Assembly: GCF_016863295.1 (NCBI RefSeq)
Contig: NZ_BOOP01000008.1
Coordinates: 248,001-312,000 of the forward strand
DNA from: Planotetraspora phitsanulokensis
Lineage (GTDB): Bacteria > Actinomycetota > Actinomycetes > Streptosporangiales > Streptosporangiaceae
DNA: 64,000 nucleotides
Direction: 5' to 3'
Position numbers and translations under genes: made by a program. This document shows, in pieces, positions 2 through 5,465 of the stretch (its first letter is position 1; each line of letters begins with the position of its first letter). Below the pieces are notes generated by a model, which had not been told where the DNA came from, did no database searches, and saw only the letters and a list, made by a program, of their open reading frames with translations.

Positions 2-685
2 CAGGCCGTCCTCGCGTCGGTCTCCGGCCGCCCCGGGGTGAGGTCGGCCCAGCTCCGCCGGGATCTTCCGGTGAGCCCTGCGATGACCGGCCTCAAGTCG
101 CGCCTGGTCGCCAAGGGTCTGCTGCTCTCGGACGGGACTGTGGACAAGCGCCGACTGGAGGCCGGCGTGCTGACGGGGTTCATCGTGTTCGAGTGCCTCG
201 TCGTCGCGCTTGCGCTACTGGTGCAGGTCATCGGTCTCGTCTCCTGGAGCGTGCCGTCCGTGGCGGCGGTGATCGTGAATGTCCTGGCGGCCCTGTACGG
301 CATCCGCGTCCGCCGGCGCCACGCGCTCCAGATGACGAGCGTGCTCACCCCGGAAGGACAGCGAGCCGTGCAGGACGCCCGGGCCCGTACGGCGCCCTCC
401 TCCGCGTCGCGCGAGCCGTCGCAGCGGACGGCGGGACGGCGGGCCCGCGCCGACGTGGCGAGACGCCCCGCCGGCGCCGCCCTGGCGGTCGGCGTGGCGA
501 TCTACGGGCTGGGGGCGCTGCCGGATCGGGGGATCGCGCAGCAGATCGCGACCGAGGTCGATCGCGATGACGCGCGGGAGAAGGGGCAGGACACCGGCCC
601 CGCGGCCGGAGGCGGGGGCGCCACGCCGGGGTGCGGCGGCTGCGGCGGCGGGTGCGGGGGAGGCTGCGGCGGATGCGGAGGCTGA
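2..685 (+). CDS. TIGR04222-type membrane protein with Cys/Gly-rich tail (5' end missing)
   Basis: The reading frame is open from base 2, so the gene begins upstream of the window; the GTG at 38 is probably internal, because the residues before it align with the interior of the paralogue at 890-1879. Visible parts are an AMTGLKSRLVAKGLLL segment that matches [16 protein letters not shown] of that paralogue, two hydrophobic stretches (about residues 48-70 and 72-90 counted from base 38), a basic linker, an AIYGLGALPD motif shared with the paralogue, and a C-terminal tail of Gly with five Cys at 2-3 residue spacing. TIGR04222 proteins are known as membrane proteins with low-complexity Gly/Cys ends; their function is not established. 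With a DUF692/MNIO gene downstream, the Cys tail may be a substrate (inference). Confidence 0.8.
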   Translation, partial: QAVLASVSGRPGVRSAQLRRDLPVSPAMTGLKSRLVAKGLLLSDGTVDKRRLEAGVLTGFIVFECLVVALALLVQVIGLVSWSVPSVAAVIVNVLAALYGIRVRRRHALQMTSVLTPEGQRAVQDARARTAPSSASREPSQRTAGRRARADVARRPAGAALAVGVAIYGLGALPDRGIAQQIATEVDRDDAREKGQDTGPAAGGGGATPGCGGCGGGCGGGCGGCGG

Positions 686-889
686 GATCCCGCCACACGG
701 CGATCGGGGGCGGCCCGCCGTCGATCCCGCAGGGCGTGTGCGCCCCGCCGCCGATGCCGTACAGGCGTGCGCCCCGGGGGGAAACTTCCGGCGATTCCCG
801 CGCGTCTAATCAGGTGGACGGGGCGCGAGCCGAACGGCCGGCAGGGCAGTGGTGAAGCGCTTCCTCCTCTCCCCCCAAGGAGGGCGTTC

Positions 890-1879
890 ATGGAGTACGC
901 ACTTCTCGTCGTCGCGATCGTCGTCGCGGTCCTCGCCAGGAACGCGGCGTCGGCCTTCACCCGGGAGCACCGCAGGATCCGGTCGGTCTCCGGCTTCAGC
1001 CGGGACGATCTCACCCACTACGAACTCGCCTATCTCGCGGGCGGCCCGCGTCGTGTGATCAACACGGCGATCGCGCTGCTCGTGGAGCGGGAACTCGTCC
1101 GCGTCGCGCGGGGAGGCCGCGTCACCGTCGTCGCCGGGACCGCTCCGCCCGCGAACGGAGTCGAGCGGGCCGTGCTGGACCTGGCCGCCGTGCCGGGAGG
1201 GCGCTCGGCGTCGGAGATCCGCCACGAGGTCGCCGGCGGCGCGGCGATGACCGACATCAAGCTGCGACTGATCGCCCGAGGGCTTCTCCTCCCGGACGGC
1301 GCGCTCAACGGCCCGAGCGCGATCAACACCAGGTTGGGGTTCCTGGTCGCCCTCGCCTTCGTGGTCACGGCCGTCTCCATCGTGTTTCCGCTCGCGGGCC
1401 TCGTCCCGTGGAACCCGTCCTCCGTCGGTGCGCTGCTCGTGGCAGGCGTCACCGCCGTGTCCGGGCTGCGCGCCCACCGCCGTTACTCGAGGTCGCTGCC
1501 GGGTCTTCTCACCACGAGCGGGCACGAGGCCCTCCAGACCGCGCAGGTGCGGAACGCGCGCACACGGGCCGAGCCGGCCTCCGTCATGGCGGACGGCGCG
1601 CTCTACACCGGCGTGGCGGGCGGCGTCGCCCTCTACGGCCTGGGTGAGATGCCCGATCAGACCGTCGCGACCGAAATCGACCAAGAACGCGATCACGGCG
1701 GAGGAGGTGCCGGCGGCTGCGCGTCGGGGAGTTGCGGAGGCGGCTCCTCGGACTGGGGGACCGGATCCGTCGGGTCCGACCACGGCGGCGGCCATTCGTG
1801 CGGTGGTCATTCCGGCTGCGGGGGCGGTTCGAGTTGCGGCGGAGGAGGGTGCGGCGGTGGCTGCGGAGGCGGAAGCTGA
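890..1879 (+). CDS. TIGR04222-type membrane protein with Cys/Gly/His-rich tail
   Basis: A 329-residue paralogue of the preceding gene. The ATG at 890 is preferred over upstream starts because AAGGAGGG (877-884) sits just before it and the protein then opens with a hydrophobic segment ([15 protein letters not shown]). A conserved cytoplasmic-type block follows (about residues 25-140, with [22 protein letters not shown]), then two hydrophobic segments near 150-200, an [10 protein letters not shown] motif, and a tail of about 55 residues rich in Gly and Ser with seven Cys and several His. Gene order and the overlap with the DUF692 gene suggest co-translation with that enzyme. The tail could bind metal, be modified by the enzyme, or be a low-complexity secreted end; only the first two explain the neighbours. 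Confidence 0.85.
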
Positions 1880-2696
1880 GCGGGCCGAGCTGGGAGTCGG
1901 CATCGGGTGGCGCTCGGAGATCGACCTGACCGTCGAGCGGATGGACGTCGACTTCGTCGAGGTGATCGCGGAGAACGTCGACCCCGCCCGGCTGCCGGAG
2001 TCGCTCGCCCTGCTGCGCGCACGAGGCGTCCCGGTCATCCCGCACGGCGTGGCCCTCGGGATCGGCGGCGCGGACCGGCCCGACCCGGCGCGCCTCGCGC
2101 ACCTGGCCGCCTGCGCGGAGGCGCTGGAGGCGCCGCTCGTGAGCGAGCACCTGGCGTTCGTCCGCGAGGGCGACGTGGAGGCGGGCCACCTGCTGCCCGT
2201 TCCCCGCACCCGTGAAGCCCTGTCCGTCATCGCGGAGAACGTACGGCTCGCGCAGGCCGCCCTCCCCGTGCCTCTCGCGCTGGAGAACGTGGCCGCGCTG
2301 TTCGGCTGGCCGGAGGACGAGCTGACCGAGGCGGAGTTCCTCGGTGAACTGGTCGAGCGGACCGGGGTGAAACTGCTCGTCGACGTGGCGAACCTGTACA
2401 CAAACCAGGTCAACCTCGGGTTGGACGCCAGGGATGCCCTCGACGGGCTTCCGCTCGGCGAGCTGGCCTACGTCCACGTGGCCGGCGGTCACCTCCACGG
2501 CGACGTCTGGCACGACACCCACACCGCCTCCGCCCCGGAGGCGGTGCTCGACATCCTGGCGGACCTGTGCGGCCGGGTGCGGCCCCCCGGAGTCCTGCTC
2601 GAATGGGACGACGACTATCCGAGCGACCGGGCCATCGCGGCAGAGCTGGACCGCATCCGCGCCGCCATGGCGCGTGGCCGGGCCGCGCGTGGCTGA
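1857..2696 (+). CDS. DUF692 family multinuclear non-haem iron oxidative enzyme (MNIO)
   Basis: A 279-residue TIM-barrel protein of the DUF692 family, whose characterised members (MbnB, TglH, bufferin enzymes) use two or three irons to oxidise Cys in peptide substrates. Expected metal-ligand motifs are all present: PHG (His63), SEHL (Glu97, His98), LENVA (Glu143, Asn144), VDVANLYTN (Asp176, Asn179), YVHVAGG (His207), HDTH (His219, Asp220, His222) and LLEWDD (Glu249). The GTG at 1857 is chosen because GGAGGAGGG at 1841-1849 lies at good spacing and the product starts just before the first conserved strand. The start lies inside the Cys/Gly tail of the upstream gene (23-bp overlap), so the two are likely coupled. 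Substrate is unknown; the tails of the two TIGR04222 proteins are the obvious candidates. Confidence 0.9.
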
Positions 2697-3075
2697 GCGG
2701 GGGCCCGTGCCGTACGCGGGGGGTGGGAGCGACCGCGGGTCGGCGGACGCGGCGCGAGAGTCTCTGCGGGCCTCCCAGGCGGCCCTGCTGGCCGCCCTGG
2801 TGGCCGGAGGCGGGGTGCCCGACGGGTTCGACCGCGAGCGCGTCAGGATTCAGGCACACAGCCTCGTCGCCAAACGGCGGGGACTCGTCGCCCGTAGGCG
2901 GCCCGACCTGGTCATGTCACTCGGCCCGGATTTCGCCGGGAAGTTCGCGGCCTACGCCGCCGGCCGTCCCAAGCCCGCCGGAGGCTCGCAGGCCGACGCG
3001 AGGAGCTTCGCCGAGTGGCTGGGAGCACAGGAGGGCCCGTCCCAGGGGGACGGGCATGGCGCGTCTACTCCATGA
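2689..3075 (+). CDS. small protein, probable partner subunit of the MNIO enzyme
   Basis: A 128-residue protein starting at GTG 2689 and overlapping the end of the DUF692 gene by 8 bp, a sign of co-translation. No motif proves a function. Its pattern resembles the DUF2063-type partner proteins found beside many MNIO genes: an N-terminal helix with a Gln and repeated Leu/Ala ([14 protein letters not shown]), then VPxGFDxxR, a basic helix ([16 protein letters not shown]), a LGxDFxxKFxxYA block and a closing [11 protein letters not shown] helix. In characterised MNIO systems such partners bind the precursor and deliver it to the enzyme. Here that role is inferred from position and pattern only; it could also be an actinobacterial domain unrelated to DUF2063. 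No Cys is present. Confidence 0.75.
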
Positions 3076-4154: not shown

Positions 4155-5465
4155 GTGGCAGTGTCCTCGAACAACCCGTCCGCATCCCGCACCTACGTTC
4201 TGGACACCTCGGTCCTGCTCGCTGACCCGGCGGCGATGAGCCGCTTCGACGAGCACGAGGTCGTCCTCCCGATCGTTGTCGTCACCGAGCTGGAGGCCAA
4301 GCGGCACCACCCCGAGTTGGGGTACTTCGCCCGCGAGGCCCTCCGCTTCCTCGACGACCTTCGGGTGCGGCACGGGCGGCTGGATGAGCCGATGCCGATC
4401 GGCGTCGGGACCATCCGGGTCGAGCTCAACCATAGTGATCCATCCGTCCTTCCCGCCGGCTTCCGCCTCGGGGACAACGACACCCGCATCCTCACGGTCG
4501 CGCAGAACCTCGCGGCCGAGGGCCGCGACGTCGTCCTCGTGTCGAAGGACCTCCCGATGCGGGTGAAGGCCGCCTCCATCGGGCTGGCCGCCGAGGAGTA
4601 CCGCGCGGGGATGGTGGTCGAGTCGGGCTGGACCGGCATGTCCGAGCTCCAGGTCACGACCGACGAGGTCGAGACCCTCTTCGAGAACGGCACCGCGGAC
4701 CTGGAGGAAGCTCGCGAGATGCCCTGCCACACCGGCCTGCGCCTGCTGTCGAGCCGCGGCTCCGCGCTCGGCCGGGTCCTGCCGGACAAGTCCGTACGGC
4801 TGGTCAGGGGCGACCGGGAGGTCTTCGGCCTGCACGGCCGCTCCGCCGAGCAGCGGATCGCCCTCGACCTGCTCATGGACCCCGAGGTCGGCATCGTCTC
4901 CCTGGGCGGTCGCGCGGGCACCGGCAAGTCGGCGCTCGCCCTGTGCGCGGGTCTGGAGGCCGTGCTCGAACGCCGCCAGCACCGCAAGGTCATCGTCTTC
5001 CGCCCGCTCTACGCCGTGGGCGGCCAGGAACTCGGCTACCTGCCCGGTTCGGAGAACGAGAAGATGGGCCCGTGGGCGCAGGCCGTCTTCGACACCCTCG
5101 GCGCGGTGACGACGCCCGAGGTCATCGAGGAGGTCCTCGACCGCGGCATGCTCGAGGTGCTGCCCCTGACCCACATCCGAGGCCGCTCGCTCCACGACGC
5201 GTTCGTCATCGTGGACGAGGCGCAGTCGCTGGAGCGGGGTGTGCTGCTGACCGTGCTGTCGCGGATCGGCGCCAACTCCCGCGTGGTGCTCACCCACGAC
5301 ATCGCCCAGCGCGACAACCTGCGCGTGGGCCGGCACGACGGCGTCGTGGCGGTCGTGGAGAAGCTCAAGGGACACCCGCTGTTCGCGCACATCACTCTCA
5401 CCAGGTCGGAACGGTCCCCCATCGCCGCGCTGGTGACCGAGATGCTGGAGAACATCGCCGTCTGA
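4155..5465 (+). CDS. phoH2: PIN-PhoH fusion protein (PhoH2-type RNA helicase/ribonuclease)
   Basis: A 436-residue protein combining an N-terminal PIN nuclease domain (about residues 12-150; acidic residues in [18 protein letters not shown] and GDNDTRIL) with a C-terminal PhoH ATPase domain (about 225-430; Walker A in [11 protein letters not shown], Walker B in [10 protein letters not shown], later [14 protein letters not shown]). Mycobacterial PhoH2 of this architecture is an ATP-dependent RNA-unwinding ribonuclease. The start is set at GTG 4155 after GGGGGAGA; GTG 4161 is a close alternative. Longer upstream frames enter the structured leader and are not credible. No antitoxin-like PhoAT gene is visible directly upstream, unlike some mycobacteria, although the leader hairpins occupy that space. 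Confidence 0.92.

Follow-up and report, generated by a model that had tools for sequence, protein, structure and literature searches.

Two Cys/Gly-tailed TIGR04222 membrane proteins beside an MNIO enzyme in Planotetraspora phitsanulokensis: a probable post-translational modification unit

We analysed a four-gene locus at the beginning of a 64,000-nt stretch of Planotetraspora phitsanulokensis DNA (contig NZ_BOOP01000008.1, positions 248,001 to 312,000; hereafter the window), in which two genes for TIGR04222 membrane proteins, A and B, are followed by a gene for an MNIO (DUF692) enzyme and a gene for a small helical partner protein. Both TIGR04222 proteins end in Gly-rich tails with several Cys residues. 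The four genes likely form a post-translational modification unit, with the tails of A and B as the putative substrates of the MNIO. The features of the locus are listed below, with assignments from AlphaFold2 (AF2) models and their confidence (predicted local distance difference test, pLDDT), profile scores and hydropathy.

2..685, + strand: 3' part of TIGR04222 protein A, putative MNIO substrate (open reading frame, ORF; 106.6 bits in the genome, 40.4 bits for the window part alone)
602..682, + strand: Cys/Gly tail of A, 5 Cys (Cys count)
890..1879, + strand: TIGR04222 protein B, putative MNIO substrate (116.5 bits; AF2 mean pLDDT 82.1)
893..982, + strand: transmembrane (TM) helix 1 of B, residues 2-31 (AF2 helix, hydropathy)
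1016..1276, + strand: winged-helix-like region of B, residues 43-129, related to DUF2207_C (AF2 helices and strands; hhalign; weak helix-turn-helix, HTH, matches)
1307..1495, + strand: TM helices 2 and 3 of B, residues 140-168 and 176-202 (hydropathy, AF2)
1592..1636, + strand: segment 4 of B, residues 235-249, a short, weakly hydrophobic helix (hydropathy, AF2)
1700..1876, + strand: disordered Cys/Gly tail of B, 7 Cys, residues 271-329 (pLDDT <50 for 271-322; Cys count)
1857..2696, + strand: MNIO (DUF692, PF05114), GTG start within the tail codons of B (profile, alignment, tree)
2689..3075, + strand: small four-helix partner, possibly DUF2063-like, GTG start (AF2 pLDDT 88.7; hhalign; fusion elsewhere)

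Gene layout, the MNIO and its partner

Gene A is open at the window edge, with its likely Met 278 bases upstream of the window. The profile scores of both A (in the genome) and B exceed the TIGR04222 family cut-off of 43 bits. Genes A and B are separated by 204 bases, and gene B carries a AAGGAGGG of its own ahead of its start codon, while the MNIO gene overlaps gene B by 23 bases and the partner gene overlaps the MNIO gene by 8 bases. The same arrangement recurs in dozens of genomes and is therefore not due to chance. An earlier note on this DNA had described two TIGR04222 paralogues whose Gly-rich tails carry 5 and 7 Cys, a DUF692 enzyme with the expected ligands and a small partner-like protein; the profile scores and Cys counts bear out the first, and the results below agree with the other two. 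The overlaps that it placed throughout the same-strand gene set are found between B and the MNIO and between the MNIO and the partner, and not between A and B. The window MNIO is the sole PF05114 match in the source genome, and the third TIGR04222 gene of this genome (C21:51508-52170, L003) has no Cys tail.

The MNIO matches PF05114 at 9e-78 over residues 16-274, which is the whole barrel. Ten positions (H63, H98, E143, D176, N179, H207, D220, H222, E249, and D251) do not vary across an alignment of 11 MNIOs, plasmid-borne bufferin-type enzymes among them, and align with those of the solved 8hci (TglH), 3bww, and MbnB. We take these positions, partly from general background, to be the metal ligands and the catalytic Asp. 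A catalytic Asp is named for FonB in the available part of PMC13097082. The MNIO of P. kaengkrachanensis is 95% identical to that of the window in the best segment. In a tree of 59 hand-picked rows, rooted for drawing only, a branch with 99/98 support has on one side 27 TIGR04222-linked MNIOs, 7 fused MNIOs from a genus that is probably Streptomyces (g3), and 3 MNIOs of this type that have no TIGR04222 gene next to them. The opposite side comprises 10 plasmid MNIOs (7 with a DUF2282 gene annotated nearby, 1 without, and 2 in unannotated records) together with 12 further MNIOs from the phylum. The tail-linked MNIOs thus appear as one clade separate from the bufferin MNIOs, which is new here. 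The NCBIfam BufB model gives the window MNIO 186 bits against a cut-off of 310. We rejected membership in the bufferins on the separate clade, on scores below the NCBIfam cut-offs and on the lack of the Sec signal peptide seen in bufferin precursors.

The partner has 128 residues, and its AF2 model consists of four helices without an RiPP (ribosomally synthesized and post-translationally modified peptide) recognition element (RRE) domain. A Pfam scan of the partner gives no match. An hhalign comparison with 8 Pfam-confirmed DUF2063 proteins gives a co-linear alignment of 89 columns (E 0.004), yet with a Prob of just 8.5%, and the control comparison with the TIGR04222 alignment gives E 0.47. 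Foldseek with the partner model returns four hits, all non-significant, with MbnC among them (E 6.0), and the single match of the partner profile to Protein Data Bank sequences is a designed protein (E 1.9). The profile is present in 73 of 76 loci picked by their MNIO from genome contigs (the MNIO-selected set) and in 48 of 50 genomes of the order sample described below; these two sets share genomes. All five loci missed by the profile are cut short: L027, L036, and L056 end within ~200 bases after the MNIO, and L138 and L142 end at or inside it. The partner and the MNIO are encoded in one open frame in all seven g3 loci examined (L109-L115), and the available part of PMC13419390 reports an HvfB-HvfC fusion made by engineering. 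The position of the partner, its fusion to the MNIO and its weak resemblance to DUF2063, the latter two new here, are in line with the partner role suggested by the earlier note. The protein may also be one of the PME-type 2 partners described by Antoine et al. (PMC12452194), which lack a DUF2063 signature and have a structure like that of DUF2063.

Cys/Gly tails and their co-occurrence with the MNIO

We defined a Cys/Gly tail as one in which [GS]C[GS] occurs at least three times and called a TIGR04222 gene adjacent if an MNIO lies within 6 kb (midpoints). The order sample comprises 150 genomes and the class sample 296, at least 28 of which are common to both. The order counts cover 147 listed rows, nine of them below the family cut-off, with three further G371 fragments left out. 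The class counts cover 70 matches outside the order, two of them below the cut-off. They leave out three second fragments, other below-cut-off matches and five over-cut-off matches, all from MNIO genomes (G647 C215, G246 C27, G182 327663, G543 4159414, and G161 C8).

In the order sample, 59 of the 150 genomes have an MNIO and 101 have a TIGR04222 match over the cut-off. The MNIO-adjacent matches number 66 of the 147 listed, come from 53 of the 59 MNIO genomes, and are all on the same strand as the MNIO (66/66), 61 before and 5 after it. Cys/Gly tails occur in 60 of these 66 adjacent matches (50 genomes) and in 6 of the 81 non-adjacent ones (Fisher p 7e-27, uncorrected for kinship), and the six non-adjacent tails sit in four genomes, each with an MNIO. 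In the MNIO-free genomes of the order, none of the 58 listed matches (52 over the cut-off, 49 genomes) has a Cys/Gly tail, and none of the 22 Gly/Ser-rich tails there has the pattern. Among the 302 Cys residues of the 61 upstream tails, 257 are followed by Gly and 26 by Ala. An alignment of 70 members shows tail residue C325 invariant and C316 at least 90% conserved, with the low-complexity tails aligning loosely.

By the same rule, 34 of the 70 class-sample matches outside the order have a Cys/Gly tail: 28 of 45 adjacent matches, 5 of 11 non-adjacent matches in MNIO genomes, and 1 of 14 in MNIO-free genomes. This single case (G507) lies at a contig end, where the first residues of an MNIO of the same type follow directly after the tail before the contig stops. 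With G507 resolved, the MNIO-free genomes of both samples have a Cys/Gly tail in 0 of 71 listed matches (58 + 13). The co-occurrence that the earlier note had named as a check is borne out in both samples, and among the matches examined no Cys/Gly-tailed TIGR04222 gene is left in an MNIO-free genome. In a phylum sample of 296 genomes, 11 have a TIGR04222 match over the cut-off, 10 of them with an MNIO; in the eleventh (G028), the match lies on an 8.6-kb contig. In the MNIO-selected set, a TIGR04222 core is found in 70 of the 76 loci, 65 of these 70 with a Cys/Gly tail; four of the six loci without a core (L063, L069, L073, and L074) begin at the MNIO, and L042 and L065 do not.

The available text of Antoine et al. 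reports 490 of 1372 TIGR04222 genomes without an MNIO and calls the association looser (PMC12452194). Because we split the genes by their tails, this looseness is gone in our samples, and the association is unusually tight for the Cys/Gly tails, which is new here. Conversely, 12 MNIO genes of the order have no adjacent TIGR04222 match. Among the 11 of these fetched, nine are of another MNIO type without this partner, L269 starts at a contig end, and L266 is of the same type. L266 and L154 belong to one genome and lie on separate contigs, so that an MNIO-partner pair stands apart from two Cys-tailed TIGR04222 genes; modification in trans is possible there. A separate observation concerns Nonomuraea soli (L078:5125-6820), where the first half of the TIGR04222 core profile matches two extra ORFs located around and downstream of the MNIO; one of them has a Cys/Gly tail, a possible expansion of substrates.

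Protein body and membrane topology

In the AF2 model of B, TM helix 1 is followed by the winged-helix-like region, TM helices 2 and 3, three shorter helices, and the disordered tail from residue 271. We read the winged-helix-like region, from the helices and hairpins of the model, as two winged helices. An hhalign comparison aligns residues 39-139 of B with DUF2207_C (Prob 96.9, E 1.8e-10); on their own, 16 of 70 members match DUF2207_C weakly, and others match HTH families. Foldseek with the TIGR04222 body gives 106 matches, none significant (best E 0.36); several of these are TolQ/ExbB chains, which we did not use as evidence. DUF2207 proteins in six loci (L091, L095-L097, L100, and L103) have a winged-helix region, a TM pair, and a Gly-rich tail as TIGR04222 proteins do, and these similarities suggest that DUF2207 and TIGR04222 belong to one superfamily.

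Charge and hydropathy were scored for 77 of 83 proteins, as six with two hydrophobic peaks dropped out. In 68 of the 77 Cys-tailed proteins, Lys and Arg (K/R) residues after TM helix 1 and after TM helix 3 outnumber those before TM helix 1 and in the loop between TM helices 2 and 3. This distribution favours an N-terminus outside, winged helices inside, and a C-terminus inside. The hydropathy and charge of five Pfam-confirmed DUF2207 proteins are in keeping with a signal-like N-terminus and an exported domain, next one TM helix and cytoplasmic winged helices, then a TM pair, K/R residues after it, and a Gly tail without a further TM helix. Because the body region of B is related to DUF2207_C, its winged helices, and perhaps its tail, should be cytoplasmic.

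The side of the tail depends on segment 4, which was compared for 147 of 242 proteins, with four g3 proteins among those left out. In the order, its hydrophobicity has a median of ~1.4 in Cys-tailed members (54) versus 0.25-0.35 in the others (23), at p 1e-7, uncorrected for kinship, and because it is more hydrophobic in the Cys-tailed members, segment 4 may cross the membrane. It reaches at least 1.6 in 17 of the 77 proteins. In five proteins of the MNIO-selected set that fall below the tail threshold, it is 1.42, no different from the Cys-tailed ones, and in the AF2 model of B it is a helix of 15 residues. We lean slightly to a cytoplasmic tail. Cytoplasmic winged helices, as predicted here, contradict the "large periplasmic domain" in the accessible text of Antoine et al. 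(PMC12452194), and the predicted arrangement also contradicts a periplasmic tail unless segment 4 spans the membrane. This winged-helix and topology argument is new here. A role of segment 4 as the recognition motif for the MNIO was set aside, as tail-less TIGR04222 proteins have similar letters there.

Proposed modification, rival explanations and known systems

The reading of the four genes as a modification unit is based on the gene order, the ligand positions, the single MNIO clade, the fusion of the partner elsewhere, and the restriction of the tails to MNIO genomes; from these we infer the modification of the tails, its chemistry, the metal, and the membrane side. The MNIO, helped by the small partner, would oxidize several Cys residues in the flexible, Gly/Ser-rich C-terminal tails of A and B. 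By analogy with the captophorin and bufferin enzymes, the likeliest product would be 5-thiooxazole, and the modified proteins may chelate a soft metal, for instance Cu(I), while tethered to the membrane. The available part of PMC13097082 describes FonBC as a 5-thiooxazole MNIO that prefers a small residue after Cys: double-repeat variants at the post-Cys position are blocked except for Ala, charged residues are unprocessed, and one Cys-Tyr context is modified once.

Several observations weigh against this proposal. In the class sample, 17 of the 45 MNIO-adjacent matches have no Cys tail; 15 of these are in g3, one is a second paralogue in G540, and one is in G586, which has an adjacent Gly/Ser tail without Cys. 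The tail-less matches make up 15 of the 24 adjacent ones in g3, and 11 of them have no Cys-tailed match beside them; nine g3 genomes do carry a Cys-tailed TIGR04222 gene. Two genomes, G023 and G193 (L114 and L115), have a fused MNIO and no TIGR04222 match among the 9 candidates scored per genome, and L042 and L065 (~10.8 kb) have an MNIO of this type with room upstream and no TIGR04222 core in the locus. The [GS]C[GS] threshold was set after the tails of the order sample had been inspected, and related genomes are not independent. The immediate neighbours, pckG upstream and uppS and phoH2 downstream, carry no hint of copper.

In the g3 loci without a Cys tail, the MNIO would have another substrate or be degenerate; one possibility is that it retained a different target after loss of the tail gene. 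The ligand positions are conserved in the g3 locus L110. This keeping of the MNIO-partner fusion beside tail-less TIGR04222 genes, or none, is what would be expected if the MNIO modified a small peptide or another gene product, with the Cys tails travelling along as unmodified thiol ligands of a metal. We consider this unlikely, as the seven g3 loci offer no convincing alternative substrate and the Cys/Gly tails, including the non-adjacent ones, are restricted to MNIO genomes. A filter for Cys in Gly/Ser/Asn-rich stretches was run over the seven g3 loci and three others. It picked out the TIGR04222 tail of L113, a 97-residue ORF in L114, another of that length in L115, and an ORF in L119. The L114 and L115 ORFs upstream of the MNIO are taken as spurious because of their codon-position GC of 0.51/0.95/0.78 and long opposite ORFs, and a separate Cys-rich peptide replacing the tail in g3 was rejected on this ground. 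As a separate observation, in L111 the coding region of a DUF4142 protein (4372-5211) separates the fused MNIO from the TIGR04222 gene, and similar-looking proteins occur in L109 and L114.

That the tails are functionless, drifting low-complexity sequence is highly improbable. A single change turns GGC into TGC, Gly codons could thus become Cys codons in high-GC DNA, and abundant Gly is seen in many tails of both TIGR04222 and DUF2207 proteins; against this, the Gly/Ser-rich tails of the MNIO-free genomes of the order lack the pattern altogether, and the conservation of C325 and C316 stands within the limits of the loose tail alignment. We rejected chance drift of Gly codons on this negative control. 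Closer to the proposed unit is the possibility that the MNIO does modify the tails and that these remain cytoplasmic together with the winged helices, as a resident, membrane-anchored metal sensor or buffer in place of an exported chelator. The positive-inside balance, the homology to DUF2207_C with the matching inside arrangement of the five DUF2207 proteins, and the shortness of segment 4 in the model all speak for it, whereas the hydrophobicity of segment 4 in Cys-tailed order members, perhaps high enough in some proteins to span the membrane, and the extracytoplasmic tail predicted in the accessible text of Antoine et al. (PMC12452194) speak against it. We regard it as a possibility to be taken seriously, short of a probable one. 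Its more specific form, in which a cytoplasmic tail with several thiooxazole-type ligands would make the resident winged-helix protein a metal-responsive sensor or store and not an exported RiPP, seems to us rather doubtful. Anti-phage defence was rejected, as PADLOC gives no match for B, the MNIO, or the partner.

The earlier note had presented a candidate new system. TIGR04222-MNIO clusters, some with PME-type 2 partners, have already been described, with the Cys tails proposed as substrates, in the available text of Antoine et al. 2025 (PMC12452194), so this claim of novelty falls away. The source locus has the feature that defines those clusters, a TIGR04222 protein with a C-proximal, Cys-rich Gly/Ser segment beside an MNIO, and shares with them the short helical partner and the occurrence in Actinomycetota. 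It differs in that the accessible text describes a looser association and a periplasmic tail, whereas the association found here is tight for Cys/Gly tails and cytoplasmic winged helices are favoured. Bufferins, oxazolin, and fontiphorin likewise have an MNIO and a helper acting on repeated Cys residues, followed by Gly in oxazolin and fontiphorin (available parts of PMC13097082 and PMC13419390). The captophorins, as described in the accessible sources, have small precursors with Sec signals, DUF2063 (often DUF2063-RRE) partners, and often DoxX, whereas the putative substrates here are membrane proteins of ~330 residues with three predicted TM helices, the partner model has no RRE domain, uppS rather than DoxX follows, and the MNIOs form a separate clade. 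Methanobactin MbnBC is similar in that an MNIO and a partner oxidize Cys, with MbnC as a non-significant hit of the partner, and differs in its small peptide precursor and in the low similarity of its MNIO (7dz9, E 1e-6). DUF2207 proteins have the homologous winged-helix region, with a TM pair and then a Gly-rich tail after it, and differ in having an exported N-terminal domain and, in six aligned proteins, a Gly tail without Cys. The titles and the beginnings of abstracts listed, in a coverage that leaves most subscription journals outside, contained no experimental study of the TIGR04222-MNIO pair.

The substrate hypothesis is already published and is likely right, and our survey makes it considerably stronger. 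The split of tails by the MNIO, the single clade, and the natural fusions make this a compact system that lends itself to testing, and a question of topology and function beyond the published account, as far as its available text goes, arises from the winged-helix core. In the available parts of the cited papers, MNIO chemistry is shown for small precursors; modification of the tails, if it takes place, would extend it to whole membrane proteins and give actinobacteria a metal-binding material tethered to the membrane.

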